A DNA stretch of 64,000 bases from Entophlyctis helioformis (taxonomy: Eukaryota > Chytridiomycota > Chytridiomycetes > Chytridiales > Chytriomycetaceae): assembly GCA_025526915.1 (NCBI GenBank), contig JAHLKH010000036.1, positions 62,001 to 126,000 of the forward strand. The letters run 5' to 3'. The notes beneath the pieces are model-generated. The model was not told the origin of the DNA. It made no database searches and saw nothing but the letters and a program-made list of their open reading frames with translations. Position numbers and translations under genes: made by a program. Shown piece by piece: positions 14,098 through 60,948 of the stretch (positions are counted from its first letter, which is position 1; each line of letters begins with the position of its first letter).

Positions 14098-14901
14098 GGC
14101 TTGTAGGTGGTGGATACACTGAGAATATACAAGTGTTGATGATGTGAACGACAGGCGGGGGCGACTGCCGCCTTTTATGGCCGTGATCTGTGCGGCGTGT
14201 TTCAGAAGCCACCCGCAGAGTGGCACGAGTGCCGCCGCTGGCTGCCCAGCACAACGACGTCTCCGCTGTGGCCCCCTGTGGCGCGCGCGCTCAGGCAGCT
14301 GATTTTGTCGCGCCACCGGAACGCGCTTGTTTGCTTGCTCGCCACCCACACAATGGCAGCCGCGACAAAGTCCCTTCCGTTGTGCCTCCAGGGCGACTGC
14401 CTCGGGAGGGGGATCCGCCCACTGGACGTCAGCTGACTGGACGTCCGGCCGCCACACCTTGTAGCCGCCAACACCCTGAAGCCGCCCTCAGCCTGGCAGG
14501 CAGGCATTCATCCGAGACGAGCAAGGATGCGTCAGTGCTGACTGGGCAGCACTTGGCTGAGAAGCACTTGGCTGCATCCCCTGGTCCATCCAGGCGAGCC
14601 GACGGCTTCCTGGAGAGCAGCATCCACGAGATCAGTCCTTGCGCTGACGCCGTGCTGAAGCAGACATGCGAGGCACATGCGACGCACATGTGTTGGACGA
14701 CGACCATTCAAACCACTGAGTGCACTGAGCAGCAGCCATCACGATCGAACAACCAGCCATTCAGTCTCTCGCACAGACATGCCATGGATTGCTGTGCACT
14801 ACTGTTCACTGCTGTGTACAAGCTGCCGTCAAACACCAAGCCAGAGATGGATATAGCAGCACACTTCATTGACCAACAGCTGGTGCACACCACAGACACA
14901 A
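14098..14901. other. spacer between secreted paralogues B and C
   Basis: No gene is seen. The B promoter with TATA box at 14171-14180 occupies the left end. Most of the remainder is nearly identical to the C/D spacer (16794-17563), showing that the duplicated unit includes the intergenic DNA. Confidence 0.65.
14171..14180 (-). promoter_or_regulatory. TATA box of secreted copy B
   Basis: CCATAAAAGG on the minus strand lies about 74 nt upstream of the copy B ATG, in sequence shared with copies A and C. Confidence 0.6.
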
Positions 14902-16793
14902 TCAGGCAATAGCAGCAAAGTTGGTCTTCTTTCCAGTGGCAATCTCGTTGTACGCGTCGGCCTGAGCACCGGTCTTGGGCGGCAGAGCCTTGAAGGCATC
15001 CGATGCCTTGTTGCAGAGGGTCTTGCACTCGCCCTGGGCACGGTCGCAGATGCGCTGGATGATGATGGCACCGTTCTGGGCAGAGCCGCCCTCGCCCTGA
15101 GCACGGAACGAGTTCTCGGTGCGGCCGTCAAAGCCAGGACCAAACTCAAGCGAGGGGAGCTTGCACTGAGCGATGAGACCGGCGCCGTTGCCAGCAGCAG
15201 CAGCACCGCCCTGGTTGTTGTTCTGCTGGTTGCCGTTGTTGTTGTTGCCCTGAGCAGGAGGAGCGCCGATGGGGTTGCCCTGGTTGTCGCGCGGCTGGAT
15301 CTCCTTGAAGTTGGTGGTGATGCCAAACACCTTGTTGAACGCGTCGGCCTGAGCACCGGTCTTGTCCGGCTGGGCGGCGAATGCGGCGGCGGCAGGGATG
15401 CAGAGATCCTGAGTGGCCTTGGGAGCCTTGCAGCGGTCACGGAGCTGGTCGCAGAGAGCACGGACGATGATGTTGCCGTTCTGTGCCGACGACTGCGAGA
15501 ACGAGTCCTTGTTGACGACCTCGAAGGCAGTCTCCTTGCGGCCATCGATGTTGAGGCCGAAGCGGATCGTGGGAGGCTTGCACGAGCCAAAGTCAATGTT
15601 GCCGTTGGCGGCAGCAGCAGGGGGAGCGACAGGGGGAGCGGCAGGCTTGTCGTTGTTGGCAGCACCGAGACCACCGGCAGCAGCACCAGGGTTGGCACAC
15701 GACGAAAAGTCGGTCACAGTCACGGTCACGGTCACGATGCCGTCAGCACCAGTCTTGGTGGCAGTGGACGTCTTCTGGCCCGTGGTCGGGGTCGCGTTGT
15801 TGCCGCCTGTGGCAGCAGCGGCACCACCAGCAGCGGCACCACCACCGCCACCGAGCTTGGCCAGGAGATCGGCCTTGGAGATGGACTGCTGTGCCTTGGA
15901 CTTGCCGTTCGTGAGCGTCGCCTGCGTGATGCAGTCGCTCGGCTGGCCCTTGACGACCTTGCGACCAAAGAAGTCGCCGTCGGCGTCGGCCGTCACGGGG
16001 AAGTTGTCACAAGTGTTGCCGCGCGCAGTCGGGTCGCCGAGCTGGCCGGGAACAAACGTCGACGTCTGCAGAGCGAGGTCGGCAGCCTGGTCGGCCGTGA
16101 AGCCGAGCTTGACAAGGTTCTGGGCGAGCTTGGTCTGCGTGTCGGCGTTGGTCGACTTGCCGAGATCCGACGCGGGGTCCTGGATCTGGGTGAGACCAGC
16201 GAGCTCGGCGCTGGATGGGGGAAGAGTGGCAGAGAGAGGGAGTGACAGAGTAGCAGAGAACATGCGTCAGCAACCACGTTGTGCAAGAGCCTGCAGCCAA
16301 CCGATCACAGCCATCAAGCAAGACAGCATGCAGCCAACCGATCACAGCCTGCAAGACAGCCACCAAAGCACGCGACTCACTTGCGAGGAGCCTTCTTGCA
16401 GACGTCCTGAGCGAGACCAACGCCGTTGGTGTTGCGCTCAAGGACACGGAACTGCATGCACGTGGCGATCTCGTTCTTGTTGGCGCCGTTCTTCTTGGCG
16501 TTGTCGATACAAGCATCGGCAAGGTTCTGCTGAACACAGACGGGGTCCTTCAAGTCGGCAGGCAGGTCGGCGTTCTGCTCAAAGTTCTTGATGTTTGCAG
16601 CGAGGCCGAGCGTGCCAAAGACGGCGTCGACCTTGCGCACAAAGGGGTCGTTGTTGCCGCCCTTGTTGAGGACGGCACGCGTGGCGACAATGAGCACTTC
16701 GTGCGAGTGCTCCTGGGGAACCTCACGGCGGACGAGCGTGGGGGCGGCGTTGGCGGCCGTGGCAGCGAGAGCGAGAACAAGAGTGGTGAACAT
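14902..16793 (-). CDS. secreted repeat protein, copy C
   Basis: Exons 16381-16793 and 14902-16210 give an intact 573-residue protein with the same layout as copy B: signal peptide, six-Cys N-domain, Gly/Ala linker, one 95-residue module, Asn/Gln spacer and end module. It differs from B by scattered substitutions. For example, it has VVKGQPSDC where B has VVKGQAIDC, a change shared with copy D, and NKNEIATC where B has DKNETATC. This patchwork of shared differences suggests gene conversion between copies. Function is unknown; secretion is inferred from the signal peptide. Confidence 0.8.
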
Positions 16794-17563
16794 GGCTTGT
16801 AGGTGGTGGATACACTGAGAATATACAAGTGTTGATGATGTGAACGACAGGCGGGGGCGACTGCCGCCTTTTATGGCCGTGATCTGTGCGGCGTGTTTCA
16901 GAAGCCACCCGCAGAGTGGCACGAGTGCCGCCGCTGGCTGCCCAGCACAACGACGTCTCCGCTGTGGCCCCCTGTGGCGCCCGCGCTCAGGGCAGCTGAT
17001 TTTGTCGCGCCACCGGAACGCGCTTGTTTGCTTGCTCGCCACCCACACAATGGCAGCCGCGACAAAGTCCCTTCCGTTGTGCCTCCAGGGCGACTGCCTC
17101 GGGAGGGGGATCCGCCCACTGGACGTCAGCTGACTGGACGTCCGGCCGCCACACCTTGTAGCCGCCAACACCCTGAAGCCGCCCTCAGCCTGGCAGGCAG
17201 GCATTCATCCGAGATGAGCAAGGATGCGTCAGTGTTGACTGGGCAGCACTTGGCTGAGAAGCACTTGGCTGCATCCCCTGGTCCATCCAGGCGAGCCGAC
17301 GGCTTCCTGGAGAGCAGCAGCCTCAGGATCAGTCCTTGTGTTGAAGCAGACATGCGACGCACATGTGTTGGACGACTGCCTTGCAAACCACGGCATGCCA
17401 TCACAATCGAGCAACCAGCCATTCAGTCTCTCGCACAGACATGCCATGGATTGCTGTGGATTGCTGTTCACTGATGTGTACAAGCTGCCGTCAAACACCA
17501 AACCAGAGATGGATATAGCAGAACACTTCATTGACCAACAGCCGGTGCACATCACAGACACAA
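16794..17563. other. spacer between secreted paralogues C and D
   Basis: No gene is seen. It carries the copy C promoter and repeats the B/C spacer almost base for base until about 17310. There it changes to the version found downstream of copy A (CTCAGGATCAGTCCTTGTGTT), pointing to a recombination join inside the spacer. Confidence 0.6.
16867..16876 (-). promoter_or_regulatory. TATA box of secreted copy C
   Basis: CCATAAAAGG on the minus strand lies about 74 nt upstream of the copy C ATG. Confidence 0.6.
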
Positions 17564-19856
17564 TCAGGCAATGGCAGCAAAGTTGGTCTTCTTGCCAGTG
17601 GCAATCTCGTTGTACGCGTCGGCCTGAGCACCGGTCTTGGGCGGCAGAGCCTTGAAGGCATCCGATGCCTTGTTGCAGAGGGTCTTGCACTCGCCCTGGG
17701 CACGGTCGCAGATGCGCTGGATGATGATGGCACCGTTCTGGGCAGAGCCGCCCTCGCCCTGAGCACGGAACGAGTTCTCGGTGCGGCCGTCAAAGCCAGG
17801 ACCAAACTCAAGCGAGGGGAGCTTGCACTGAGCGATGAGACCAGCGCCGTTGCCAGCAGCAGCAGCACCGCCCTGGTTGTTGTTGTTCTGCTGGTTGCCG
17901 TTGTTGTTGTTGCCGCCCTGAGCAGGAGGAGCGCCGATGGGGTTGCCCTGGTTGTCGCGAGGCTGGATCTCCTTGAAGTTGGTGGTGATGCCAAACACCT
18001 TGTTGAACGCGTCGGCCTGAGCACCGGTCTTGTCCGGCTGGGCGGCGAATGCGGCGGCGGCAGGGATGCAGAGATCCTGAGTGGCCTTGGGAGCCTTGCA
18101 GCGGTCACGGAGCTGGTCGCAGAGAGCACGGACGATGATGTTGCCGTTCTGAGCCGACGACTGCGAGAACGAGTCCTTGTTGACGACCTCGAAGGCAGTC
18201 TCCTTGCGGCCGTCGATGTTGAGACCGAAGCGGATCGTGGGAGGCTTGCACGAGCCAAAGTCAATGTTGCCGTTGGCGGCAGCAGCAGGGGGAGCAGCAG
18301 CACCGCCCTGGTTGTTGTTGTTCTGCTGGTTGTTGCCGTTGTTGTTGTTGCCCTGAGCAGGAGGAGCACCGATGGGGTTGCCCTGGTTGTCGCGCGGCTG
18401 GATCTCCTTGAAGTTGGTGATGATGCCAAACACCTTGTTGAACGCGTCGGCCTGAGCACCGGTCTTGTCCTTCTCGGCGGCGAATGCGGCGGCGGCAGGG
18501 ATGCACAGGTCCTGAGTGGCCTTGGGAGCCTTACAGCGGTCACGGAGCTGGTCGCAGAGAGCACGGACGATGATGTTGCCGTTCTGTGCCGACGACTGCG
18601 AGAACGAGTCCTTGTTCACAACCTCGAAGGCAGTCTCCTTGCGGCCATCGATGTTGAGGCCGAAGCGGATCGTGGGAGGCTTGCACGAGCCAAAGTCAAT
18701 GTTGCCGTTGGCGGCAGCAGCAGGGGGAGCAGCGGGCTTGTTGTTCGCTACACCAACACCGAGGTTTCCAGCTCCAACGCCAGGGTTGGCGCACGACGAA
18801 AAGTCGGTGACGGTCACGGTCACGGTCACGATGCCGTCAGCACCCGTCTTGGTGGCAGTGGACGTCTTCTGGCCCGTGGTCGGGGTCGCGTTGTTGCCGC
18901 CCGTGGCAGCAGCGGCACCACCGGCAGCGGCACCACCACCGCCACCGAGCTTGGCCAGGAGATCAGCCTTGGAGATGGACGGCTGTGCCTTGGATGCACC
19001 ACCCGTGAGCGTCGCCTGCGTGATGCAGTCGCTCGGCTGGCCCTTGACGACCTTGCGACCAAAGAAGTCGCCGTCGGCGTCGGCCGTCACGGGGAAGTTG
19101 TCACAAGTGTTGCCGCGCGCAGTCGGGTCGCCGAGCTGGCCGGGAACAAACGTCGACGTCTGCAGAGCGAGGTCGGCAGCCTGGTCGGCCGTGAAGCCGA
19201 GCTTGACAAGGTTCTGGGCGAGCTTGGTCTGCGTGTCGGCGTTGGTCGACTTGCCGAGATCCGACGCGGGGTCCTGGATCTGGGTGAGACCAGCGAGCTC
19301 GGCGCTGGATGGGGGAAGAGTGGCAGAGAGAGGGAGTGACAGAGTAGCAGAGAACATGCGTCAGCAACCACATTGTGCAAGAGCATGCAGCCAACCGATC
19401 ACAGCCAAGCAAGCTAGCCAGCCAGGCAAGACAGCCACCAAAGCACGCGACTCACTTGCGAGGAGCCTTCTTGCAGACGTCCTGAGCGAGACCAACGCCG
19501 TTGGTGTTGCGCTCAAGGACACGGAACTGCATGCACGTGGCGGTCTCGTTCTTGTCGCCGCCGTTCTTCTTGGCGTTGTCGATACAAGCATCGGCGAGGT
19601 TCTGCTGGACACAGACGGCGTCCTTCAAGTCGGCAGGCAGGTCGGCGTTCTGCTCAAAGTTCTTGATGTTTGCAGCGAGGCCGAGCGTGCCAAAGACGGC
19701 GTCGACCTTGCGCACAAAGGGGTCGTTGTTGCCGCCCTTGTTGAGGACGGCACGCGTGGCGACAATGAGCACTTCGTGCGAGTGCTCCTGGGGAACTTCA
19801 CAGCGGACGAGCGGAGCGACCGCCACTGCGAGGGCGAAGACGAGGTTTGAGAGCAT
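17564..19856 (-). CDS. secreted repeat protein, copy D (two modules, different leader)
   Basis: Exons 19456-19856 and 17564-19304 give an intact 713-residue protein. From EVPQEHSHEVLIVATRAVLN onward it follows copies B and C, but the leader is unrelated in detail (MLSNLVFALAVAVAPLVRC) and so is the promoter. Exon 2 holds two full 95-residue modules (about 18420-18705 and 17970-18270) separated by NNNNGNNQQNNNN, then the end module. The extra module explains the 140-residue length difference from B and C. The first module reads FAAEKDKTGAQADAFN where the others read FAAQPDKTG. It is the outermost copy of the array and probably received its 5' end by recombination with another secreted-protein gene. 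Confidence 0.8.
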
Positions 19857-46765: not shown

Positions 46766-46949
46766 TGTAGTACTGGGCCGCCAGACGGACTTGCCGGCTG
46801 GTCTCGGGGCAGTGAGTATGCACGCAGGGGAACGGCGGGCAGACGACTGCAAGAACGGGGGAAGCCAGAGCGGCCGGTGCGGCCCGACAATGTCTGTCCG
46901 GTCACGTGGGTCACGTGGATCACGTGACCGCGACCGAGCATCCGTTACA
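46766..46949 (-). repeat. 3' LTR of the chromovirus
   Basis: 184 bp, TGTAACGG...TACTACA on the minus strand. It contains three CACGTG palindromes spaced 9 bp apart (46903, 46912, 46921). It is 76 bp shorter than the 5' LTR. Confidence 0.85.
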
Positions 46950-49900
46950 CTCCCCCCAGCGTAGACAGCCACTTATAAGAAAGAAGAGTGGATGAACAGC
47001 GACTAAGAGGATGCGGGGGCGTTGCACACACGAGAGGCAGAAGTGCGGGCAACAATGGACGCGTAGGACACAGGACGGGGAACCGTGCGCTCAGAGCGAC
47101 GAGGTGGGGCGGGATGGTTGAGAGGGGGAAGAGAAGAGAGAGAGAAGGAAGGAGGAGAAGAGGGAGGAGGGAGAGGAGGGAAAGATGGAGAGAGAGAGGG
47201 AGATGCGGGTGCAGCAGGTGCGATCGGCTCGTCAGCCGGAGCAGGTGCCGCAGGCGTGGCTGCTGCTGGAGCAGGGCCACTGGTGCAGGAGCAGGCACAG
47301 TGCGCTTGCGGCGAGAGGACTTGGATGCCTTGGGCTGCGTGGGAGCAGGCGCCGCGGCGGGGGCAGGGGCAGCCGGTGCAGGAGCCGCGCGCGTGGGCTG
47401 AGCCGGTTTGGATGCCTTGCCTTTAGGCGCCTTGGACGGCCGAGCGTGGAATGCCTTGACGAGGTCCTGGGCCTTGCGCATGTCCGCGGCTGGGACCCAT
47501 GTGTTGTCGTCGGCTGGATAACCGACCCACTTGACCAGATACTCGATCTTGCCGCGATAAGTGCGCGAGTCAACGATCCGCTCGACCTCGTAGTTGTCCG
47601 ACGTGCCGTCGTCGGCATGGTACTCGGGGTCCGGCCGGGAGGGCACATCCTTGCGGCCGGTGGGCGCAGACAGAGGGTCGACGTACGGGCAGATCCGGTC
47701 GGCATGGAACACGTTGTGGACGCGGTGCAGCGAGGCAGGCAGCGCGAGCGTGTAGTTGAGGCCAGATTCACCAGAGTCCAGGCTGGTGATGGCAAAAGGG
47801 CCAAGCCACTTGGCGGCCGTGAGCGGCGGGCGGTGCGAGTCCGCCAGCCAGGAGATGCCCTCAGCGTTGAGGAGCACCATGTCGCCGACCTTGTACGCAG
47901 GGTGACGGCGGCGACGCTTGTTTGCCTGAACGGCCATAGCTGCCTGAGCTTTGCGCCGATTCAAAATGGCCGAGTCGCGGGCAGCGGCCATGTCCAGCAG
48001 CAGGTCGCGGGCCGCGGCAGACGGTGCCAGGGCCGGCTCGGACGGGAAGGACCGCGGGTGGCGGCCAAACGCCAGGAAGAAAGGTGCAAAGCCAGACGAA
48101 GCCGACGGCGCGCAGTTGAGGCCAAAGCAGGTGGGACCGAGCAGCAGCGGCCAGTCAGAGCCGTGGTAATCGGCCGCCTTGGCGAGCGCATCCTTGATGG
48201 TGCGGATGCTGCGTTCGGCCAAGCCGTCAGTCTGCTGGTGGCGAGCCGTGCTGAGGTTCTGCTTGATCCGGGCAGCGGTGCAGAGGCTCGACCAGAAGGC
48301 CGACAGCCAGCGGGCGTCGCGGTCCGAGACGATGTCGACCGGGAAGCCCTTGCCCGAGCAGACCCAGCGAGTCAGGAAGAGCTCGGCCAGCTCCTGGGCC
48401 GACGACGAGCGGCGGCACGGGAACGCGTCGCAGAGGCCGGACAGGCGATCGACCACAACCAGAGCAGCATCAAACGCATCGTCTTGTCCGCCCGCGGGCA
48501 GGAACATGACGTCCATGGCGACGCTCGAGAAGCAGTCGTCCGGGATCGCGAGTGGATGCAGCAGGCCGTCAGGCCGGTGATTGGGCGTGCGGTGGCGCTG
48601 GCACACGTCGCATGAGGCGACATAGGCAGCAATGTCCTCAGACATTCTGGGCCAGAAGTACCGGTTCGACAAGCGGCTGGTGGTCCGCTGACGTCCCTGG
48701 TGCGCACCAAAGGGAGAGTCGTGGTAGTGGGCAAGCAGATCCGCGCGCAGAGACTGCGGCACATACAAGCGGTTGCCTTTGTACCACCACGCACCATCCA
48801 AGCACTCCATGTGCACTACGACCTTGCGGTCGGCCGGCGTGGCTGACGACGGGTCAGCCTTCCAGCCAGGCAGTCTGGAGGCGAATGGGTCGGCCGGCAA
48901 CGCCGCACGCACGTCTTTCGCCCAGTCAGAGTCAGTGCGCAGATTGGCAGCACGGATCGGGACAGGCGAGCGACAGTTTGTGCAGAGAGGGGCCTTTGAG
49001 GGATCGCGGGACAGCAGATCGGCCAGCGAGTTGAGCTCGCCAGGCACGTACTCGATGGATGTATCAAACTCCTGCAGAGACAGGACCCATCGAGCCTGCC
49101 GATCCGACAGGTGGGGCTGCGTGGCCAACCAGACCAGCGCCTTGTGGTCAGTGTGCGTGACAGAGCGCACACTGGACAGCAGATGACGGAAACGCGAGAA
49201 GAACTCCACGATGGCGAGCAACTCGCGTTCGTGGGTTGGATAGTTCATCTCGGCTGGGCTAAGCTTACGTGACCAGCAGGCCACCAGCTTCTCGCCATCT
49301 GGGTGGATCTGCGACAGGTAGCCGGCAATGACGTAGTTGCTGGCATCAGTGTAGACATGCGTTTCCAGAGCCGGGTCAAAGAACCGCAGCTCGGTTGCCT
49401 TCAACACTGCCTGTCGCAGGTCTTCCACAGCCTGCTTTTGAGCAGGGCCCCACTCCCACTTGGCATTCTTGGCTAGCAGCTTGTATAGTGGCAGCACATG
49501 GTGGCGTACGCCTTTGCAGGGTTCGGCCCACCAATGAATGACTTTAACCACACAAGCTTACCTAGCCAAGTTGCCAGAGTGGACGTGTTTGAGATGTGGG
49601 GGGCAGCTGCCATGTCCTGCAAGTGCTTTGGCGCAATGGAATAACCAGTGGGCGAGAGCACGTGACCACAGAACTCAATGTCCTGCTGCAGGATCATGCA
49701 CTTGGACGGCTTAATGTACAATTGAGCCTCCAGTAGCAGCTTGAGAACAGTGCGTAGGTGTTTGATATGCTCCTTGTACGTCGCGCTGTAGATGTAGATG
49801 TCATCCATGTACACCGAGACGCACGTGCCCAGCAGCTCATTGAGCGTCGACTGGATGGCCTGTGTAAACACAGCCGGAGCATTGGTCAGCCCAAAGGCAT

Positions 49901-50475
49901 GACCGTGAACTCAAAGTGACCAAACTGGGTGGAGAACGCAGTTTTCCACTGGTCCTCCGCCTTAACACGAATGTTAAGGAAGCCCTCGCGGATGTCAAGC
50001 ATCGAGCGGAAGGGTTTGTTTGCCAAGTTATCGCGGAGGGTCTCAATCTCCGGGATCGCACTGTGGAACTTCACCGAGATGTTGTTCAAGCCGCGGTAGT
50101 CGATGACCAACCGCAGCGAACCATCCTTCTTGCGGACAAAGAGCGTGCCGGCGCCCAAAGGCGATGACGAGCGGCGGATGTAACCTTTGGTGTACCACTC
50201 GTCCAGCTGCTTCTTGAGCGCTACGGATGCATCCTGGTTCAGTTTCTTGAGGCCACGACGCGGCGGCAGCTGCGCATCCTTAATGAAAGGGATCGCGATC
50301 TCGAACTCCGAGTCGTGCGCACGGCCTTGCGGCGGGCAGCAGACCTCGTAGTACTCGATGAATGCCTTCTGCGTCTCCTCGTCCGGGCAGACTGGAAGGT
50401 AGGGGTACTTCTCCTTCAGCTCGTCCGGGGTGAGGCCGTTTGCAGCCGCGACGCGAAGGCGCGCATCGCAGCTGC
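46945..50475 (-). CDS. chromovirus pol: RT, RNase H, integrase, chromodomain
   Basis: Reverse transcriptase runs from about 50450 to 49500 and includes FVRKKDGSLRLVIDYRGLN and the catalytic VYMDDIYIYS. RNase H follows with YTDASNYVIAGYL, THERELLAIV and TDHKALVWL. Integrase has an HHCC zinc site (HYHDSPFGAH ... CDVCQRH) and core acidic residues in AMDVMF, VSDRDARW and TDGLAERSI. The chromodomain is YEVERIVDSRTYRGKIEYLV plus KWVGYPADDNTW. Frame changes occur at the gag-pol join (about 50450), at CCTTTGGG near 49898 and near 49500, each explained by one missing base. The reading frame ends 5 bp inside the LTR. The last about 100 residues are an artefact-like Leu/Pro tail, suggesting another frame change after the chromodomain. 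Confidence 0.85.
46950..46957 (-). other. polypurine tract of the chromovirus
   Basis: GGGGGGAG on the minus strand directly abuts the TGTAACGG start of the 3' LTR, the expected plus-strand primer position. Confidence 0.7.
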
Positions 50476-53055
50476 CTCACGGTCCTCGGGCAGGTCATCC
50501 ACATAGACCAGCTCCGCGTACTCGTCAGGATGGGCGAGGATGTCCGACATGGTAACCACGATGTCAGAGTGCGGCCGGTTGTGGGAGGCAGCGGACGGCG
50601 GAGCGTCTTTGTGCTGCCAGATGTGGTGCACATCGGGGCGCGACTCGGTTGAGAAGCGGAAAACGCCGCGCCGGAAGTTGAACGACGCCTTCGCGGTTGT
50701 GCGCAGCCATGGCATGCCCAGGATGACATCATCCACACCATCGTAGACAAGGAACCGCACCTGGCTGACAGCATTAGATCTGTCCGCGAGCGTGAGGTAG
50801 ACCTCCGAATCTAGTCTCTGCAAGTTGCCGTTGGCAAACTCGAGAGTCACCGCCTGCCGGGTGAACGGCCGGGCAGCGGCGAGCAGGCCGTTGGCATCCA
50901 ACCAACGGCGAGCTACCAGATTCGCGCTGCTGCCAGTGTCCACCAGGACACTGGCACTGCGATTGTCCAGGAACACCGGGAAGGTGCACCGGTGCTTGGT
51001 GATCGGAGTCACCAGGGCAAGGTGCCCCTCCTTCAGCCGCGACGGCGGCATAACAGGGCAAGCAGGATGAACGGGGAGCCCAGAGGGCATCTTTTTATTC
51101 GCAACGCCACCCAGAGGGTCACTCTTCTTCGTCTGCGTCGCTGTACTGCGTCCCGTCGTCTGAGAACGACGAGACGGTTTCGAGCGACCGCGAGCCGGAG
51201 CCATTGCTGGTGCGCCGTCGTCACGGGCAGGGACCGATGGAGATTCGGTGTCAGCATTGGGCTTACGCACGGCTGCAGGCTTAGCCGCCGAAGCGTGCTT
51301 AGCCGCAGGAGCAGGAGGAGCCAAAGGGGGCGAGCGAACGTACCCGGGTGCCTTGGCCTTTGCCGCGATGCGCCCGACCTTAGAGTGGGGCGGGCGCTGG
51401 CTAGGCGATCGGCCAGCATGGTCGGCTGTCGCAGCAGGCGAGGCAGCCTTGCGCGTCTCCGACGCGCTGCTACTGCCGGAAGGCGCAGGAGTGGCCTTGG
51501 GCGATGAGGAGCTCCAAGAACGCGGCGACGCGGCGGCTGTCTTGCCAGAGCTGGGCGTCGACTTGGCGTCTTGGGCCTTGTGAGCGTTGGCGAGGGCAGT
51601 GGCAATTGCAATGTTACGCTCGTGTTCCTCCGCGCCTGAGTGTCGCTTGATGAACGCCTCGCGGAGGGCCGAGTAGGTCGTGAGCGAATCCCACGCCTCG
51701 GGCTTGTCCTTGATGCGCGTGCGGAGGAATGTGAGCATCTCCGCCTCCGTAAGCTGGGCGTCACCAAACAGCCGCTCGGCTGCATGTAGCCAATCCTGCG
51801 GGACACGGCCATGGCACTCAGTGGGCGCAAAGTCACGCTCCAGCTTCTGGCGAGCCTGGCCTCGGACTCGTTCCGGGGCACTGTGGCGCGACACGAGGTC
51901 CGCAAGGAAGTGGGCGAGCGTCGGGGGCGGATCGTCTGTCTTGAGCGACTTGAACCAGGCGGTGGCAAATACGCGGGCCTCGCCTGTGAGGAGCGTCAGG
52001 AGGGTTGCGCCAATGTCGCTCAGGGGGATCGCATCCACGCCGGTCGCCTTGCAGGCACTCTTGTAGGCCATCTCAATGGCAAGGACAAATGGCTCAAGGC
52101 TCTCGCGAGTGGCGTTCCAGTTGACCGTCAGCTGCGAGCCCTTGACCATGACAAGGCCGTTGAACGGCGCCTGTCTGCCAAGCGACTCCGAGAACACCTT
52201 GGCCAAGTTTGGTGCACGGGCATCCACGACTGCTGGCAGGCGAGCATCCACCGAGGATCCAGACGCGGGGGCCGGACGCGAGTCCACCGAGGACCCAAGC
52301 GCCTGGACCGGATGCTCCGCAAGCAGGGTCGCCGTGGCTGAGGCCTGCGCCAACGCGGCATTTGCCGTTTTGGTGGCCTTGGCAACGGCATCTGAGAAGA
52401 CCTGCTCCAGTGCAATCACGGATTCCGACGTGTTGGCGACGCTCTTCTGCAGGCCCCGTATGGCCTCTGAGTTGGCCTCGACGGAGTCAAAGAGTGCCAC
52501 CAGGCATTGATGGTGGAGCTGGGTGGCGCTGGAGTAGGCCTCAGCCTGCCTGGCGGCAGTGTCGCGGTCGGCCTGCAGCTGCAGCCGCAGATCATCGATG
52601 GCCGCGTGGGCAGCGGCCGCAGATGATGTGGTTGCCTTGAGTGCTCGGCTGGTGTCTGACGCCCCTGTGTGGAGGCGCACGAGTTCGTAGAACATGTGCT
52701 CTCCAGTGATGGTGAAGGGTCGCCTGGGGGCACTCCCAGCGCCAGGCTGGACGGCCGGCGTGCTGGAGAGGAACGCCTCTTGGCGCCGACCAGCGTCTGC
52801 ATCGTGGCGGCCCAACAGATCGGCCGAGGAGTGGCGGCGCGCTGGTGAGGCGCCAAAAGACGCGCCCAGAGCAGAGTCGGCCATCAAGACGGACGACGTA
52901 CCCGCAGGGTCGGGGCGGTGCTGGAACCTTGGGGGGGTGGCGTCGATGAACGAGCGGGCCGTATCGAACGAGGCCTCGCCAAGGAGGTCCTGGTCGGTGC
53001 CCAAGGGGGCGGCAGCCGAGCGAGCCGCGGGCTGGGGCGAGCGCTCGACGGCCAT
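50416..53055 (-). CDS. chromovirus gag-protease polyprotein
   Basis: One frame of 879 residues from MAVERSPQPAARS. The capsid-like region lies around TVNWNATRESLEPFVLAIEM and RVFATAWFKSL through WDSLTTYSALREAFIKRHSG, the usual retrotransposon gag pattern. A long Ser/Pro/Ala/Lys region follows in which no CCHC zinc knuckle is visible. The aspartic protease has VLVDTGSSANLVARRW and DDVILGMPWL. The product ends shortly after the protease at a stop where the reverse transcriptase continues in the -1 frame. Confidence 0.8.
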   Translation of the reverse strand: MAVERSPQPAARSAAAPLGTDQDLLGEASFDTARSFIDATPPRFQHRPDPAGTSSVLMADSALGASFGASPARRHSSADLLGRHDADAGRRQEAFLSSTPAVQPGAGSAPRRPFTITGEHMFYELVRLHTGASDTSRALKATTSSAAAAHAAIDDLRLQLQADRDTAARQAEAYSSATQLHHQCLVALFDSVEANSEAIRGLQKSVANTSESVIALEQVFSDAVAKATKTANAALAQASATATLLAEHPVQALGSSVDSRPAPASGSSVDARLPAVVDARAPNLAKVFSESLGRQAPFNGLVMVKGSQLTVNWNATRESLEPFVLAIEMAYKSACKATGVDAIPLSDIGATLLTLLTGEARVFATAWFKSLKTDDPPPTLAHFLADLVSRHSAPERVRGQARQKLERDFAPTECHGRVPQDWLHAAERLFGDAQLTEAEMLTFLRTRIKDKPEAWDSLTTYSALREAFIKRHSGAEEHERNIAIATALANAHKAQDAKSTPSSGKTAAASPRSWSSSSPKATPAPSGSSSASETRKAASPAATADHAGRSPSQRPPHSKVGRIAAKAKAPGYVRSPPLAPPAPAAKHASAAKPAAVRKPNADTESPSVPARDDGAPAMAPARGRSKPSRRSQTTGRSTATQTKKSDPLGGVANKKMPSGLPVHPACPVMPPSRLKEGHLALVTPITKHRCTFPVFLDNRSASVLVDTGSSANLVARRWLDANGLLAAARPFTRQAVTLEFANGNLQRLDSEVYLTLADRSNAVSQVRFLVYDGVDDVILGMPWLRTTAKASFNFRRGVFRFSTESRPDVHHIWQHKDAPPSAASHNRPHSDIVVTMSDILAHPDEYAELVYVDDLPEDREAAAMRAFASRLQTASPRTS

Positions 53056-53061
53056 CTGAAA

Positions 53062-53106
53062 AAAATAGAAAAATCGACGGAAAAATCGACGGAAAAATCG
53101 ATCGAC
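53062..53106. repeat. ATCGACGGAAAA short tandem repeat in element leader
   Basis: Between gag start and 5' LTR, GAAAAATCGACG is repeated about three times. I could not recognise a tRNA primer-binding site next to the LTR end at 53153. Confidence 0.6.
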
Positions 53107-53152
53107 GGCGGCGGGAAACGGCGGCCGACGGCGTCGAGAGGGCGGTTCTTGC

Positions 53153-53412
53153 TGTAGTACTGGGCCGCCAGACGGACTTGCCGGCTGGTCTCTCGGGTCA
53201 GTATGTGTGCACGTGAGGAAGGGCGGGCAGACGACTCTTCATTGGGAGGCAGCACAGACCTGGTCTCTCGGGTCAGTATGTGTGCACGCGAGGAAGGGCG
53301 GGCAGACGACTGCAAGAACGGGGGAAACCAGAGCGGCCAGTGCGGCCCGACAATGTCTGTCCGGTCACGTGGGTCACGTGGATCACGTGACCGCGACCGA
53401 GCATCCGTTACA
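53153..53412 (-). repeat. 5' LTR of the chromovirus, internally duplicated
   Basis: 260 bp with the same ends as the 3' LTR. The extra 76 bp is a tandem duplication of GGTCTCTCGGGTCAGTATGT through GGGCGGGCAGACGACT. The CACGTG triplet is at 53366, 53375 and 53384. Confidence 0.85.
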
Positions 53413-53550
53413 CTTGCCCCAGCTGTCGTCTTGTGCATCCAACCGCAGGTACCCTCCATCTCCCCTGCCTGTCCCTGCTACTGGTCTGACAATGAATATC
53501 TTGTGCATCCAACCGCAGTCCTTCCGCCTCCTCACAGATATGCACTGATC

Positions 53551-54827
53551 ATGGCATGCCACCTCACCAAGTGGAAGATTGCGATCCACATCGCGGACAA
53601 TGAGGCAACAACAGTCTGTCAGGCACTCTACTATGGCATCATCACCCAGTTTGGCCCAATGAAGGTCCTGGTAACAGATCAAGGCAGCAAGTTCACGTCC
53701 AAGGTCACTCGCCGCCTGGCACGGCAGCTACTGATCGACCAGCGATTCACGACGGCGTATCATCATCAGGCCGCCCACGGGGCAGAGCGTTTCACCAAGT
53801 ACCTCAAGGACGGGCTCAGCATCTTCACTCAGGGCGACTACCCGGCATGGGAACTGCCCATGCGATCCTTGGTCTACACGTACAACTGCTCCAAACATGC
53901 GACCACCCAGTTCACCCCGTTCTACCTCATGCACGGTTTCCAGCCGCCGACGCTGACCCACCTCAACGGGGCGGACATGCTGCCGGCGCTCAAGGAGGAC
54001 ACGGTCCGGCACCGCTTGGACATGCTACGCGCACTGCATCTCGCGCGGGCTCTGGCCGCCAAACACATCATGGATCGGCAACAGCAGTGGGGCGCAAGGT
54101 ACAACCAAGGCCGAAAGGACACATCATTCGAAGTAGGCAATTTTGTCTGGGTCTGGGCTGACGCCCAGGGCCGACCAGGGCAACCCAAGAAGTTCCGAGA
54201 CACTTGGCACCGCGAGTGCGTAGTTGTCGAGGTACGGCCCCACTCCAACTACGTGGTTCAACCCCTGGGAGACAATCGACAACCCCAAGAAGGCGGTCCA
54301 CGCCGCGTGGTCAACATCAAGAAGCTCCGGCCATTCTTTGTTCGGCAGGAGGACCCCAACAAGATTTTGAGATGGAGGACGCGTCAATGGTCACGGGTAG
54401 TGCACTATCTTTGCTGACTCAGCCGGCCACGGTGACAAGCGCAGCGGCCGACCCCAGTTCGCACGATTCGACAGTGTCCACAGGGGAACTGGAGGTGGCA
54501 GGAGGCCAGCAGCCCATGGACCTCGGATTGGTGCCTATATTGGATGAGGTGGAGCCCGCGGACGCCCGGTGTCAGAGTTCCTGCTCGAGTGCAGCGAAGG
54601 CACAGGGAACTGCGGGTCTGAGGCACAGACAAAAGGAAGAGGAGCTGTCAGGCGACAGTGTCTGTGGCAGGCAATTGAATGTGTATTCTAAGAAGTACCT
54701 GAGGCACAGACAAAAGGAAGAGGAGCTGTCAGGCGACAGTGTCTGTGGCAGGCAATTGAATAGAACAGCAAGGGGAAGGGAGAGTCGCGAGACACGGAAT
54801 TGGAAAAGCCAACAGACAATAATCTAA
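53551..54827 (+). pseudogene. integrase and C-terminal tail of the second element
   Basis: The conserved core LIMACHLTKWKIAIHI, VLVTDQGSKFTS and HGAERFTKYL matches a Ty3/gypsy integrase, with later TTQFTPFYLMHG and VGNFVWVW. In LIMACHLTKW, cysteine stands where the first catalytic aspartate is expected, and the zinc-binding part is missing. After FFVRQEDPNK the frame moves (about 54362) and continues as FEMEDASMVTGSALSLL to an acidic tail. The tail contains two 63-bp copies (54618-54680, 54699-54761; period 81 bp, so in frame). No chromodomain is seen, unlike the neighbour. Confidence 0.65.
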
Positions 54828-54948
54828 CACCCGGCGGCGGAATCCTCTCTGAGTCGCGCGACGTGTCCGGGCCACAGATCTGTACCCAAGCAGGCGCTAC
54901 GGCGCCAATTAGTACCGCTCGATTGCTCGGTTTTCTAGGAGGAGGAAG

Positions 54949-55164
54949 TGTCAACGGCCCGTATCCACGGTCGTTGGGTTCTTATGGCGTTTCAGTGTTT
55001 TACTAGGATCTTAACTTAACGATTGAAACCTATTACTACCAGCCCTCGTTCTGGAACTTTCATTCAGGTACTGTCGCCGTTTATATGCCAGTCTCCCCCA
55101 TCTCTCTGACAATGAACCCTGTGTATTACGACCGCCAGTACAACTGCCTGGCACCCATTCTACA
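54949..55164 (+). repeat. presumed 3' LTR of the second element
   Basis: Immediately after the purine run AGGAGGAGGAAG the sequence begins TGTCAACGGCCC and ends TTCTACA 216 bp later, giving TG...CA ends. A TTTATATGCC sequence near 55080 could be its TATA box. No second copy is present in the window, so the right end is a guess. Confidence 0.5.
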
Positions 55165-55266
55165 CCATCATCCCATTGCCCACTGTCCTGTTGCATGTCA
55201 TGATATTTGCTGTTTGCATCTATTTATTGGCTTTAAGGTCCACAATCCAAGCCCTTATCCTTAGTG

Positions 55267-58200
55267 TCATGCCTTGTCTTGAGACTCCAAGTGCTGCACC
55301 TTGTCCTGTAGCTCTTGGATCTTCAATTCAAGGACCGGCAGACGCTGCATCTCCAATTCAAGGACTGCCAGACGCTGCATCAGTGTGGTTGGCACCGGGC
55401 TCTCTGCAGCCATATCCGGTGTGCGGGTCAGTGGGGAGCCAGAGTCTCTTGTTGGTGTGGTGCTGTGATCGTGGCTGAGAGGGGCAATGCTGGGCAGTTG
55501 GGGTGTAGAAGGAGTCAAATCAACATGGCTTGACCCAGCAGTCTGTGCACTTGAAGCATTTGAAGTCACGTTTGTGAGAACAGTGGCGATCTTCTTCTTC
55601 TTGCGGTACTTTTTGGAAGCCGCCCTTGCAGCCTCGCGGCGACGACGCAGCACATCCTCGGCAGACGATGAGTTGTCTGACGGGGTGGAATTTACGGGCA
55701 CCTGGTTGCCGACCAAGAGTGGCAGCTGTGCGAAGGGCTGCGGGAAGTAGTTCAGCTGCTGCTGCTGAGGCTGAAGCTGCTGAAGCTGAAGCTGTTGAAA
55801 AGGCTGCTGCAGAAGCCGCTGCTGCTGCCGGAGGTTGTTGTTGTCCTGCTGAAGCTGCTGCTGAAGCTGCTGCTGAGGCTGAAGCTGCTGCAGAAGCCGC
55901 TGAACCTCTTCCGATGACAATGTTTCAACGTTGTTTGGCAGCTGAGGCTGCTGCGGCTGAGGCAGTGGGGGGTTGAACATCGCCTGAAGGTGCTGCAAAA
56001 TCTGGGAATCAGCACCTGTCCCAAAGGAGAAAAATGGGGATTGGCCTGTTGGAGGGTTGGAAGCGCCGGAGTGGTGGCCTGTGCCTGATAAAGCCCCAGA
56101 TTGGAATTGCAGGGAGGGATGGCCCTCGCTCTGGCCAGTCCCACTTGATGATTGCCAATATTCTCTACAATCACCAAGTCAGTCCCTATATGCAATCAGA
56201 ACTTTACACAATGTAATGCTTACTGTCCAGTCTGATGGGCAGAATTGCCCAGTCCAGCTGGTGTACCTTCTTGAAAAAGATTGTTGCTAACAGTACTGCA
56301 ATCACCATGTCAGTTCCTATCTGTAAACAGTCACTTGAGACAATGCAAAGCTTACAGAACAGTCAAATTGGTCAGATGACCCAGCTCAAGTGGGATGCTT
56401 CCTGACAGCTTGTTGTTGTCAAGATGCCTACAAATCATCAAGTCAGTCCATCTGCAACCAGGAACATATGCCAGTACAATGCTTACAGCTCAGTCAAATT
56501 GGCCAGTTTGCCCAGCTCACTTGGAACACTGCCTTCCAGTTGGTTTTTGGAAAGAAGCCTTCCATAATCAATTCAGTCCATCTGCAGACAGGCACATGAG
56601 ACAGTGCAATTCTTACAGCACAGTCAGATTGGTCAGATGGCCCAGCTCAGTTGGGATGCTTCCTGACAGCTTGTTGTTGTCAAGACACCTACAAATCATC
56701 AAGTCAGTCCATCTGCAACCAGGAACATATGCCAGTACAATGCTTACAGCTTAGTCAAATTGGTCAGTTTGCCCAGCTCACTTGGAACACTGCCTTCCAG
56801 TTGGTTTTTGGAAAGAAGCCTTCCATAATCAATTCAGTCCATCTGCCAGCATATACTTGAGACAGTGCAATTCTTACAGCACAGTCAGCTTCTTGAGGTT
56901 GCCAATCCACTCTGGCAGTTTAGTGAGTTGGTTGCCATACAGATTCCTGTTCATCCCACTCTGTCAGCAGTACACTCAACAAAGTACTCTTGTGAATCCA
57001 TACACTCACAGCCCAGTCAGCCAGGTGAGGTTGCCAATGGACTCTGGCAGTTGAGTGAGCTGGTTGTTCCACAGATTCCTGTTCATCCCACTCTGTCAGC
57101 AGCACACTCAACAAAGTACTCTTATGAATCCATACACTCACAGCCAAGTCAGCCAGGTGAGGTTGCCAATGGACTCTGGCAGTTGTGTGAGCTGGTTGTC
57201 ACTCAGATACCTGCCCATCTCACAGTTAGCAGTACACACAACACAGCTCTCCTGTGCATCCAAACACTCACAGCTCAGTCAGCCAGGTGAGGTTGCCAAT
57301 GGACTCTGGCAGTTGTGTGAGCTGGTTGTCACTCAGATACCTGCCCATCTCACAGTTAGCAGTACACACAACACAGCTCTCCTGTGCATCCAAACACTCA
57401 CAGCTCAGTCAGTTGGGTGAGGTTGCCAATGGACTCTGGCAGTTGAGTGAGCTGGTTGTCACACAGATCCCTGCCCATCCCACTCTGTCAGTAGTACACT
57501 CAACAAAGTACTCTTGTGCATCCATACACTCACAGCTCAATCAGTTGGGTGAGGTTGCCAATGGTCTCTGGCAGTTGAGTGAGCTGGTTGTCACTCAGAT
57601 ACCTGCCCATCCCACTCTGTCAGCAGCACACTCCACACAGCTCTCCTGTGCATCCAAACACTCACAGCCAAGTCAGCCAGGTGAGGTTGCCAATGGACTC
57701 TGGCAGTTGAGTGAGCTGGTTGCCATACAGACCACTGCCCATTTCTTCTGTCAGCAGTACACTCAACACAGTACTCTTGTGCATCCATACACTCACAGCT
57801 CTGTCAGCTGGGTGAGGTTGCCAATGGACTCTGGCAGTTGAGTGAGCTGGTTGTTCCACAGATTCCTGCTCATCCCACTCTGTCAGCAGCACACTCAACA
57901 CAGTACTCTTGTGAATCCATACACTCACAGCTCAATCAGTTGGGTGAGGTTGCCAATGGTCTCTGGCAGTTGAGTGAGCTGGTTGTTCCACAGATTCCTG
58001 CTCATCCCACTCTGTCAGCAGTACACTCAACACAGTACTCTTGTGCATCCATACACTCACAGCACAGTCAGCTGGGTGAGGTTGCCAATGGACTCTGGCA
58101 GTTGAGTGAGCTGGTTGCCATACAGACCACTGCCCATTTCTTCTGTCAGCAGTACACTCAACACAGTACTCTTGTGCATCCATACACTCACAGCTCAGTC

Positions 58201-60948
58201 AGTTGGGTGAGGTTGCCAATGGACTCTGGCAGTTGAGTGAGCTGGTTGTTCCACAGATTCCTGCTCATCCCACTCTGTCAGCAGTACACTCAACACAGTA
58301 CTCTTGTGCATCCATACACTCACAGCACAGTCAGCTGGGTGAGGTTGCCAATGGACTCTGGCAGTTGAGTGAGCTGGTTGCCATACAGACCACTGCCCAT
58401 TTCTTCTGTCAGCAGTACACTCAACACAGTACTCTTGTGCATCCATACACTCACAGCACAGTCAGCTGGGTGAGGTTGCCAATGGACTCTGGCAGTTGAG
58501 TGAGCTTGTTGCCACGCAGACCACTGCCCATCCCACTCTGTCAGCAGCACACTCCACACAGTCCTCCTGTGCATCTATACTCACAGCTCTGTCAGCTTGG
58601 TGAGGTTGCCAATGGACTCTGGCAGTTGTGTGAGCTGGTTGTCACTCAGATACCTGCCCATCTCACAGTTAGCAGTACACACAACACAGCTCTCCTGTGC
58701 ATCCAAACACTCACAGCTCAGTCAGTTGGGTGAGGTTGCCAATGGTCTCTGGCAGTCGTGTGAGCTTGTTGTTCAACAGATTCCTGCCCATCCCACTCTG
58801 TCAGTAGTGTATAGACACAAGGAGATACTCTACCAAGAAACAGCTTACAAAGTCTTGAGGTGTGAGAAGCCTCCAATATGGGGTGGCAAAGGACTCTTGA
58901 TATCCTGATGGTACATGTGGCTGTGCAGCAGATGCAACAGTCAGCATCACAATCTGTAAAGTAGGCCAGTACAAACAGCAACTTACAGTCTGACAAGATG
59001 GCCATTCTCCCACTCAAGGATCCTGTACTCAGACCCCTGGAAATTCACAACTCCATCAAAGCTCTGGGCATTGGCAGCTGTGATGCCCTTTCTGGCACGC
59101 CACTCTGGGAAAGCCTTGACCAGACGCTCAGCATCAGAGATCTTGGGCTGGGAGGCAGCATAGCCAGAGTCCTGGTTCTGGAACCGGAGAGAGACTCGAG
59201 GCAGTTGCTGATTGTCCGGGGCTGCAGGCTGTGCAGCAGGTGGCTTGAGATCCTGCCCGGCCAAGCTGATGCTGGCCATGCTGGCAACAAGTGAGCTCGC
59301 AGCAGGCTGTGCACCAAAGTCTGGCTTGGTGTGTGGCAGCATGTTGAGGCGTGCAGCAACCTGGCGGAACGTGGGCCGCTGTGCAGGGTCGTGGGCCAAG
59401 CAGTCCTCAATGATGGCCCACAGCGAGTCAGGGATGCCATCGGGGCGGTTGGGACGCTCGCCTTGAATGACCCAGTCCTTGACAATCTCGTCGTCGAACT
59501 TCTTGGCAAATGGCACCTTGCCCGTGAGCACCTGGAGGGCTGTCATGGCAAAGGCAAACACGTCCGATGGCGGTGCGAGCGTGTATCCGCGCTTGTACTT
59601 TTCCGGTGCGATCCAGCAGGTGGCACCTCCTTTGCGGTTGGTGTTGGCTGATGACGACGTCTTGATGAAGGCGAGGCCAAAGTCGGTGATGCACGCCTCG
59701 CCATCAAAGCCGATCAGGATGTTGTTGGCCTTGAGGTCGCCATGGATGACGGGGTTGGGCAGCTCGTGCAGGTGCTGCATGCCGCGGGCAGCACCGAGCA
59801 GCAGGTGGACGCGCACGGCCATTGGCGTCTCTGGCGCCTTGCGCAGAAAGGCGGCAACGTCGCTGTGCATGAGCGGCATGACGAGGAATGGCGAGTTGGT
59901 GTTGAGGCACACACGCCAGAGCGGCAGCACGTTGGGGTGGCGTAGCAGAAACCAAACGGCGGCCTCCTTCTCGATGGCTTCGATGGCCTCTCTGCCGATC
60001 GCACCACTGATGACCTTGATGGCAACGCGGCGGCCATTCCACTCGCCATGAAAGATCTGGCCATAGCTGCCCTCGCCAATCTTGCGGTCCGAGAAGATGT
60101 CAACGTCGTCAGGGTCGACAGACCATTCGTGCGGTGCAGACAGTCCACGGCCCGAGCGCATCATAATGCTCTGCTTGGTGCTTTCGAGCAGCTCGGTGGC
60201 ACGCGGACGAACCTGGTCAGGCAGCACGGCGAGCAGCTGTTCCTGGTGCTCCTTGATGGCAAGCAGTGTCTCGAGCTGCCTGTGTGGCGTGTGCGGGGCG
60301 GCATTGAGTGAGCGCAATGGTGTGGATGGCAGGCGTCAGCACAAGGGCAATGCAGCGAGTGCACAACGCGAGGTGTGGTACTCACTGCTGCTGCATGTCA
60401 AACTTGGTGGCCATGAGCTGGGCCATGAGAGTGGGCAGATCGGCCGTGTCTTGGGCAATGGCCTTGGCCACGGCGTCGGCCTGGAAGGCGACGGCAAGCT
60501 GCAGAGACTGGAAGGTGCAGGCAGGGGGGCGTCAGCACAGGAGCAGCAGGGCGGCAGCAAACGCAGGGCATGAGATGCTATGGGGTGGTGGCAACGGCAA
60601 GCAGCACACCTGTTGCAGCTGCACAAGCTCTGCATCAAGACTGCGGATGGTGTCGGCCGTCTTGCTGATGGCGAGTGCCTGCTGCAGGGCATTCTTGGCG
60701 GCCGTCTTGGCGAGGAAGCGGTCGATTCTCGAGAGCACGGCCTCGAGCTCAGCGATGTTGGCGAGCACGGCAGGACCCTGCGAGTCGCCGACTTGGTTGG
60801 CGAGCGTGACGGTCACGAGCTCGGCATGGTGGGCGAGGGCGGTGGCAGCGGCACGGTTGGTGCGCACGTTGTCGGCGAGCGAGACGATTCCCTTGACGAG
60901 CGTTTCGACGATATCGAGCGATGCCATGTTTGTTGGGAAAGTCGCCAT
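55267..60948 (-). CDS. MLKL-like domain / TKL kinase / 21-LRR / bZIP-like fusion protein
   Basis: Twenty-five exons sum to 1373 codons with no stop. Exons 1-3 are 60610-60948, 60386-60507 and 58987-60279. N-domain, residues 1-155: helical, as in MLKL-type four-helix bundles (VETLVKGIVSLADNV, LSRIDRFLAKTA, LQLAVAFQADAV). Kinase, about 215-480: GEGSYGQIFHGEW, VAIKVI, HGDLKANNIL (Gly replaces the HRD Arg), ITDFGLAF, WIAPEKYKRG. Then 21 one-repeat exons: 58849-58920; fifteen of 69 nt starting at 58715, 58585, 58455, 58324, 58192, 58061, 57929, 57797, 57666, 57534, 57402, 57272, 57142, 57010, 56878; five of 72 nt starting at 56748, 56617, 56487, 56356, 56224. The last exon, 55267-56164, holds Gln-rich sequence and RRRREAARAASKKYRKKKK, then a short leucine coil. 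No signal peptide: probably an intracellular signalling protein. Confidence 0.7.
56224..58920 (-). repeat. LRR exon-intron array, period about 131 bp
   Basis: Twenty-one units of one LRR exon plus a roughly 60-bp intron. Each exon begins after the second base of a Leu codon and ends at the same place in the next, so any number can be added or lost without breaking the frame. Introns start GTGAGTG or GTAAGC, have CTGAC or CTAAC branch sites and end GGGCAG, GTAG or GAAG. Exons 2-16 are of the LTQLPESIGNLTQLTEL type and nearly identical, introns included. Exons 17-20 are of the KLSGSIPTELGHLTNLTVL type, and exon 21 is degenerate. Confidence 0.85.

Follow-up and report, generated by a model that had tools for sequence, protein, structure and literature searches.

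A gene on the minus strand of contig C36 of Entophlyctis helioformis, a member of the Chytridiomycetes (29.6-Mb assembly; positions 60948-55267 of the window, which is the whole stretch of 64,000 nucleotides analysed here), appears, on balance, to encode a cytosolic member of a chytrid family of receptor-like kinases, in which a helical bundle and a kinase are followed by an evolving array of leucine-rich repeats (LRRs) and by a tail added through a probable gene fusion. The gene architecture, the exon arrays, the turnover of their units, the face-biased amino acid change in the array of this gene and the origin of the tail are established at the sequence level. Judged by these data, the array is a stronger point of the gene than the tail, and its face-directed change deserves attention.

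Gene model and domain architecture

The re-derived gene model has 25 exons with GT-AG borders throughout and a coding length of 4119 nt, i.e. 1372 amino acids plus the stop codon (Table 1). This agrees with the initial annotation, whose 1373 codons include the stop codon, and the borders of its kinase exon with the GTAAGT donor (58987-60279) came out the same. The common phase claimed for the LRR exons was found in 21 of 21, all of which have both borders behind the second base of a codon; this codon specifies Leu at every border but one, the end of the last LRR exon, which falls in a Gln codon. The 21 LRRs were likewise recovered as 21 exons, and the LRRs are a strong Pfam match from about residue 600. 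The acceptor at 56165, proposed to join the last LRR to the frame of the tail, holds at the sequence level, with 56224/56164 as a predicted junction. Within the last exon (56164-55267), no in-frame ATG lies upstream of the one at 55980, as had been stated.

The protein deposited for this locus (BC831DRAFT_549308, P0001 below; 1231 amino acids) also joins the array to the tail, by different splice sites. Up to the last LRRs it agrees with the 25-exon model; it lacks 56266-56016 and about 55534-55404, and its end is read in a different frame. The parts of the tail missing from it include parts conserved in a related gene on contig C29. The 25-exon splicing was preferred because it keeps the tail segment whose reading frame is conserved with the C29 relative.

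Table 1 Features of the gene and of the sequence downstream of it (positions in the window)
Feature	Position	Strand	Basis
Exon 1: start codon and first part, MLKL-like helical domain	60610-60948	-	MLKL_N, E 0.004, below cut-off
Exon 2: rest of helical domain	60386-60507	-	re-derived exon
Exon 3: end of helical region, TKL-type kinase (residues 218-465), linker	58987-60279	-	PF07714, E 4.9e-44
LRR exon no. 1, 72 nt	58849-58920	-	re-derived exon
Fifteen 69-nt LRR exons, LxxLP type, one LRR each, same phase, introns of 61-63 nt	56878-58783	-	splice pattern
Five 72-nt LRR exons, GSIP type; fifth degenerate, ends in Gln codon	56224-56819	-	splice pattern
Final array intron, homologous to other LRR-array introns	56165-56223	-	sequence comparison
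Junction stretch, acceptor to first C29-related base	56089-56164	-	part resembles sequence downstream of C101 array
Tail: Gln-rich stretch, basic stretch, Leu-rich coil, stop	55267-56088	-	similarity to C29 gene
AATAAA hexamer	55223-55228	-	sole A[AT]TAAA on this strand, 61000-54900
Integrase core	53203-54414	+	retrotransposon piece
Gag-type protease	50416-53052	-	retrotransposon piece
RNase H, integrase zinc finger, chromodomain	46945-49548	-	retrotransposon piece

The MLKL-like helical domain claimed for the N-terminus stands at the level of the family. Six of eight N-domains compared matched MLKL_N at E ≤ 1 (best 3.3e-8), 6 of 27 related proteins did so at E ≤ 0.5 when scanned over their full length (best 2.6e-7), and the relative P0009 reached 30.7 bits, above the Pfam cut-off of 27. 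The window protein itself stays below this cut-off (17.1 bits, E 0.004). In MLKL, a four-helix bundle and a brace are followed by the kinase fold. The AlphaFold model of P0009 (771 residues, mean pLDDT 82.3, pTM 0.57) has four long helices, then helices at 130-207, the kinase and the LRRs; the predicted order is that of MLKL when the layouts of the whole proteins, and not the N-domains by themselves, are compared. In a comparison of this model with PDB chains the matches were filled by kinases and MLKL was not listed, which is not informative on the N-domain. A profile of the N-domain gave chance-level matches among PDB sequences (best E 0.059) and did not find MLKL there. The search of the genome with the MLKL_N family gave zero matches, the control not being detected either, and the NCBIfam scan returned generic matches far below the cut-off, with none for the C29 protein.

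The TKL kinase of the initial annotation was confirmed by a strong match to PF07714 (E 4.9e-44, residues 218-465). The catalytic residues whose loss would indicate a pseudokinase are all in place, namely the Gly loop (GEGSYG, 222), VAIK (239), HGDLKANN (333) and TDFG (352), and the kinase is probably active. No membrane-type hydrophobic stretch was found in the protein by hydropathy (best 19-residue mean 1.46, within the kinase), and the kinase precedes the LRRs; the protein thus departs from the plant-type LRR receptor kinases in both respects. The Pfam scan at E ≤ 1 detected no NACHT or NB-ARC domain. Of the suggested "cytosolic sensor with a releasable or nuclear effector end", the sensor layout can be retained in view of the missing membrane helix, the intact kinase motifs and the MLKL-like N-domain, whereas the effector end is unsupported.

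Kinase–LRR proteins in chytrids

By similarity searches, the gene belongs to a chytrid family with a TKL-type kinase and LRRs and without a membrane helix, members of which occur in E. helioformis, Polyrhizophydium stewartii and Batrachochytrium salamandrivorans. The protein search yielded 1580 proteins at E ≤ 0.001 among 8000 candidates scored, and the best 120 of the 1580 were examined. The top 19 matches comprise two proteins of E. helioformis (P0001 and P0016) and 17 of P. stewartii, while P0021 is from B. salamandrivorans; LRR cores are present in 18 of the 21 proteins P0001-P0021. The basidiomycete proteins among the best 120 of 1580 carry no LRR family in their Pfam annotation. The check for the same architecture in related chytrids, which the initial annotation had proposed, recovered the kinase–LRR family; the tail matched no other among the long proteins searched.

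Turnover of exon units in the LRR arrays

The exon units of the array recur about every 130-132 nt with their splice sites in register. This regular spacing, the homology of the last intron to introns elsewhere and the strong Pfam matches of kinase and LRRs place the array exons beyond chance. The splice pattern confirmed exon–intron arrays on eight contigs (C36, C223, C68, C101, C176, C27, C184 and, at 180 kb, C29), and DNA similar to the GSIP-type units is present on at least nine other contigs. Among 14 LRRs of C36 (322 amino acids), identity is 80% as the pairwise mean and 82% between adjacent repeats by a simple ungapped count. Retention of an intron would halt translation directly after the Leu of the LRR in 98 of 100 units (C36, C223, C68, C101, C176 and C27).

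On C223, the array of a related gene comprises at least 31 LRR exons and is cut off by the end of the contig. The kinase exons of the C36 and C223 genes are 94% identical (dN/dS 0.38), and the nearest exon lies in the same array for all 44 units compared (14 of the fifteen 69-nt exons of C36 and 30 of the 31 exons of C223). Since every unit compared is nearest to its own array, the units have turned over since the two genes split.

In the C223 array (C223:1-10000), the introns are far more alike than the exons, synonymous sites included; the mean difference is 0.028 in the introns, which are nearly uniform, versus 0.143 in the exons. Homogenised introns around exon variants maintained by selection have been reported for MHC genes, and one reading of the C223 pattern would be of the same kind, with introns homogenised around exon variants that selection has kept.

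Arrays of this type seem to break the assembly, since both the end of C223 and a 4703-bp contig encoding a partial array (P0033) lie within arrays. An assembler might accordingly have joined two places of the genome through near-identical repeat units. We consider such an error very unlikely at the present locus: matches elsewhere in the genome do not exceed 78% for the GSIP-type units or, among long ones, 82% for the tail, so that a second arrangement was not seen. The deposited model is no independent check on the assembly since it derives from the same contig.

On C101 (20-5340), visual inspection suggests a second type of receptor. Its N-terminal frame has no Pfam match at E ≤ 0.05, its kinase-like frame has HGS in place of HGD, and its LRR exons form a four-unit super-repeat.

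Amino acid change on the predicted binding face

The x positions of LxxLxLxxNxL were assumed to be the face codons of the LRR units. Changes were counted as the least number between distinct codons, without a tree of the units, and the p values are uncorrected. The diversity tests in C36 cover 14 of the fifteen 69-nt exons; C184b (5 units), an overlapping stretch of C184, was left out of the count of eight arrays. The six face codons of the C36 array carry 15 non-synonymous changes at 14.5 sites, i.e. 1.03 per site, as compared with 0.14 at the other codons, 0.22 at synonymous sites of the exons and 0.36 in the introns. Face change thus exceeds change at the synonymous sites (p 0.0025) as well as in the introns (p 0.0027), and C36 is the only array to pass both controls. 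Face change above that of introns was found at p < 0.05 in five of the eight arrays (C36, C223, C101, C27 and C184) and not in C68 (p 0.17), C176 (0.071) and C29 (0.068); face change above that of synonymous exon sites at p < 0.05 was found in one of eight, i.e. C36. Relative to the other codons, the face changed more in all six arrays tested (p 0.015 or less). When 20000 random sets were drawn from the non-structural codons, the observed concentration on the face was reached by 111 sets in C36, 45 in C223 and 151 in C27, and by 2976 in C68, 5032 in C101 and 14833 in C176. Over whole exons, pN/pS was not confidently above 1 in C36 (1.37; 0.51-5.26) or C223 (0.64; 0.31-1.44).

Greater variability of exons than of introns was also considered as a general proof of selection and was rejected. 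The exon difference equals or exceeds the intron difference in six of six arrays (in C36 the two are practically equal, 0.118 vs 0.116), and this alone is no proof because the synonymous sites of C223 exons vary more than introns as well (p 4e-5).

The family might serve development or nutrient sensing and not the recognition of other organisms or non-self. Plant LRR kinases act in development as well as in recognition and thus lend this reading some weight, but the face-biased change and the fast turnover of units in C36 fit a changing ligand better, and we regard a developmental or nutritional role as unlikely.

Origin and status of the C-terminal tail

A search of the genome DNA with the last exon gave 12 matches, among which, besides the exon itself, only C29:30690-31227 is long; the remaining ten cover 40-140 bases each and fall within the Gln-rich stretch or close to it. 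The tail and the C29 gene share 82% DNA identity over 55272-55824 (positions 341 to 893 of the last exon). The C29 relative is a single-exon frame of 278 residues with its own ATG, deposited as BC831DRAFT_510597. As a query it gave no further match among the 8000 candidates scored, and the window tail matched only the deposited model of its own gene among 1096 candidates of similar length. Similarity to the C29 gene starts at 56088, which corresponds to residue 34 of the relative with the frame unchanged (33 of 41 nt match at 56088-56048), and the start codon and the first 33 codons are therefore absent from the window copy. By these comparisons, the tail represents a copy of the C29 gene truncated at its 5' end, and it is private to the window gene.

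The 76 nt between the acceptor and this point (56164-56089) are of other or unclear origin. Part of them resembles sequence downstream of the C101 array (score 41, 0 of 300 shuffles), and a genome search at E ≤ 1 found the stretch nowhere else. A protein similarity at the junction (EYW/EFW, 2 of 5000 shuffles) was dropped, as the first part looks array- or C101-derived, and the C29-related sequence was kept from 56088.

The initial annotation saw a bZIP-like DNA-binding segment in the tail, which might on this basis be a working DNA-binding or nuclear effector released upon ligand sensing. This now appears very unlikely. The tail does contain a basic stretch (RRRREAARAASKKYRKKKK, residues 1247-1265) and a Leu-rich coil in frame, and the C29 relative matches bZIP_2 with E 0.0033. 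This match is, however, below the cut-off (17.9 against 22.3 bits) and covers the basic region only, and none of the bZIP families of Pfam matched the window tail at E ≤ 1. The coil starts at residue 1335, about 70 residues away, whereas in a bZIP the zipper lies directly behind the basic region. The bZIP basic region has an invariant Asn; in an alignment by eye this position is Gly in the C29 relative and Ala in the window tail. Purifying selection on the tail is not shown either, because dN/dS between tail and C29 gene is about 1 (1.09, bootstrap 0.65-2.03, 143 codons).

The same dN/dS value would suit two separate units: a kinase–LRR gene that stops within the array or shortly behind it, and a tail that is a partial C29 copy, independent or in decay, which gene finders join to the array in error. 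We find this doubtful, while granting that several observations agree with it. Among P0001-P0021, the protein ends at most 40 residues past the last LRR in 16 of the 18 that bear LRRs, the two exceptions being the window gene and the compound model P0003. Read-through at the last donor meets TAA immediately, and the C101 array, by eye, closes with a short stop-bearing exon. Codon usage at the junction is poor (-0.32 per codon, the lowest of the three frames); the junction frame is free of stops over 61 codons, as is one other frame. On the other hand, the tail copy offers no in-frame start codon before 55980, and its frame is open over about 300 codons, the neutral chance of no stop being 0.20-0.04 for 32-64 substitutions. 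The last array intron has homologues among the introns of other arrays, and the deposited model likewise joins array and tail. No A[AT]TAAA occurs between 61000 and 55229; the one copy in 6.1 kb of this strand, where about two are expected by composition, lies 39 nt past the stop codon of the tail. A fusion of array and tail is probable as a predicted gene model, perhaps an idle one: with the frame intact, the hexamer so placed and dN/dS about 1, the fusion is likely as a model and its function doubtful.

Proposed mechanism and known systems

In the mechanism that we propose, an MLKL-like helical bundle would stand ahead of a probably active TKL-type kinase and the LRR array. The concave face of the array would recognise a ligand, whose binding would release or cluster the kinase; the kinase might then trigger the helical domain, presumably to act on a membrane, or pass a phosphorylation signal on. 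The array would evolve by duplication of exon-plus-intron units of one LRR each and, because each duplicating unit is one symmetric LRR exon, repeat number and face residues could vary in frame. The tail would have been gained when a 5'-truncated copy of a lineage-specific gene landed behind the array, and it would be taken into a joined mRNA, in frame, via the last intron of the array; it may well do little.

Plant LRR receptor kinases carry 72-nt LRR exons and resemble the present gene in encoding LRRs by modular exons. The same holds for human NLR genes, where LRRs as exon modules are described as a precondition for alternative splicing of LRRs (PMC6642158). In contrast to both systems, the kinase precedes the LRRs here, no membrane helix is present and near-identical units are duplicated with their introns.

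More tentatively, the chytrid may possess an LRR recognition repertoire composed of several kinase receptors with helical effector domains. Their swappable symmetric exons would duplicate together with the introns and their face would be selected for change, further variation being possible by exon skipping, and intron retention could truncate the protein cleanly behind almost any LRR; the window copy would have captured a C-terminal output module. If true, this would be the LRR-based type of repertoire that fungi are said to lack: in the relevant portions of two surveys, LRR pattern-recognition receptors are given as absent or nearly so from fungi, LRR receptors being almost entirely absent (PMC2939053), and no LRR-bearing NLRs as found there (PMC4986451). 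With such a chytrid family, direct tests of recognition and regulated cell death would become possible in early fungi, and the evolution of repeat receptors would be seen to operate through exon–intron units, and the tail would be a case of a receptor acquiring a C-terminal piece through apparent chance fusion. Full-text literature searches gave no description of a chytrid MLKL-like/kinase/LRR-array family among the matches listed, and no paper for chytrid, tyrosine kinase-like and leucine-rich repeat in combination. Among the best 15 of 502 matches on LRR, chytrid, kinase and MLKL, no study of such fungal receptors was evident by title.

By analogy, the array resembles the selected repeats of fungal NLRs, with LRRs as its building material. 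According to the passages of PMC4986451 that treat these repeats, fungal NLRs contain WD, ANK or TPR repeats and no LRRs; as in the present gene, the C-terminal superstructure repeats are alike within a gene. Some positions of the NLR repeats are under positive selection, to which the face-biased change in C36 may correspond. The window protein differs in having a kinase and no NACHT or NB-ARC domain, and LRRs in place of WD, ANK or TPR. Its LRRs are also less alike (80% in C36, by an ungapped count with a different program) than the threshold for highly conserved repeats given in the same passages (>85% over ≥100 amino acids; PMC4986451).

HeLo-type helical effector domains are described on some fungal NLRs in part of PMC10197012, and HELL domains joined to kinase or pseudokinase domains in fungi in part of PMC12881547; the word "chytrid" is absent from the main texts of both papers. 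The likeness to MLKL and to the HELL-kinase proteins, as far as the latter are portrayed in that part (PMC12881547), consists in a predicted helical N-domain ahead of a kinase fold. The differences are that the window kinase looks active by its motifs, that a long LRR array follows and that the MLKL_N match is below the cut-off. Closer in composition are LRR-kinase genes without a membrane helix, of which four are mentioned for Batrachochytrium dendrobatidis and five for filamentous ascomycetes in the pertinent section of PMC2939053. Likened by description, the B. dendrobatidis proteins share with the window protein the combination of LRRs with a protein kinase and the lack of a membrane helix, whereas an array of one LRR per exon, an MLKL-like domain and a tail are not mentioned in that section (PMC2939053).

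Neighbouring sequences

Retrotransposon pieces lie downstream of the gene (46829-55066), and more than one piece is assumed because the domains are spread over separate frames on both strands. Terminal sequence common to other contigs ends about 200 nt past the stop codon of the tail. A 27-nt element at 55038-55064 was considered as a 3' sequence common to LRR genes, in which case the tail would be an insertion; this was rejected in favour of a retrotransposon end. The element has 14 copies in the genome at ≤1 mismatch. It was read as a retrotransposon end because four of the five stretches examined around six of the copies had no LRR exon by pattern and most copies share longer downstream sequence. 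Besides the copy behind the window tail, others occur on C27, C29 (two) and C101, at 0.26-0.64 kb past the last LRR exon found there.

Three related large frames of 452, 452 and 596 amino acids are arranged in tandem on the minus strand at 12206-19357 of the window. Two of them have no Pfam match at E ≤ 0.001 and one has only a match below the cut-off. The first two are 99% identical and the third is 79% identical.
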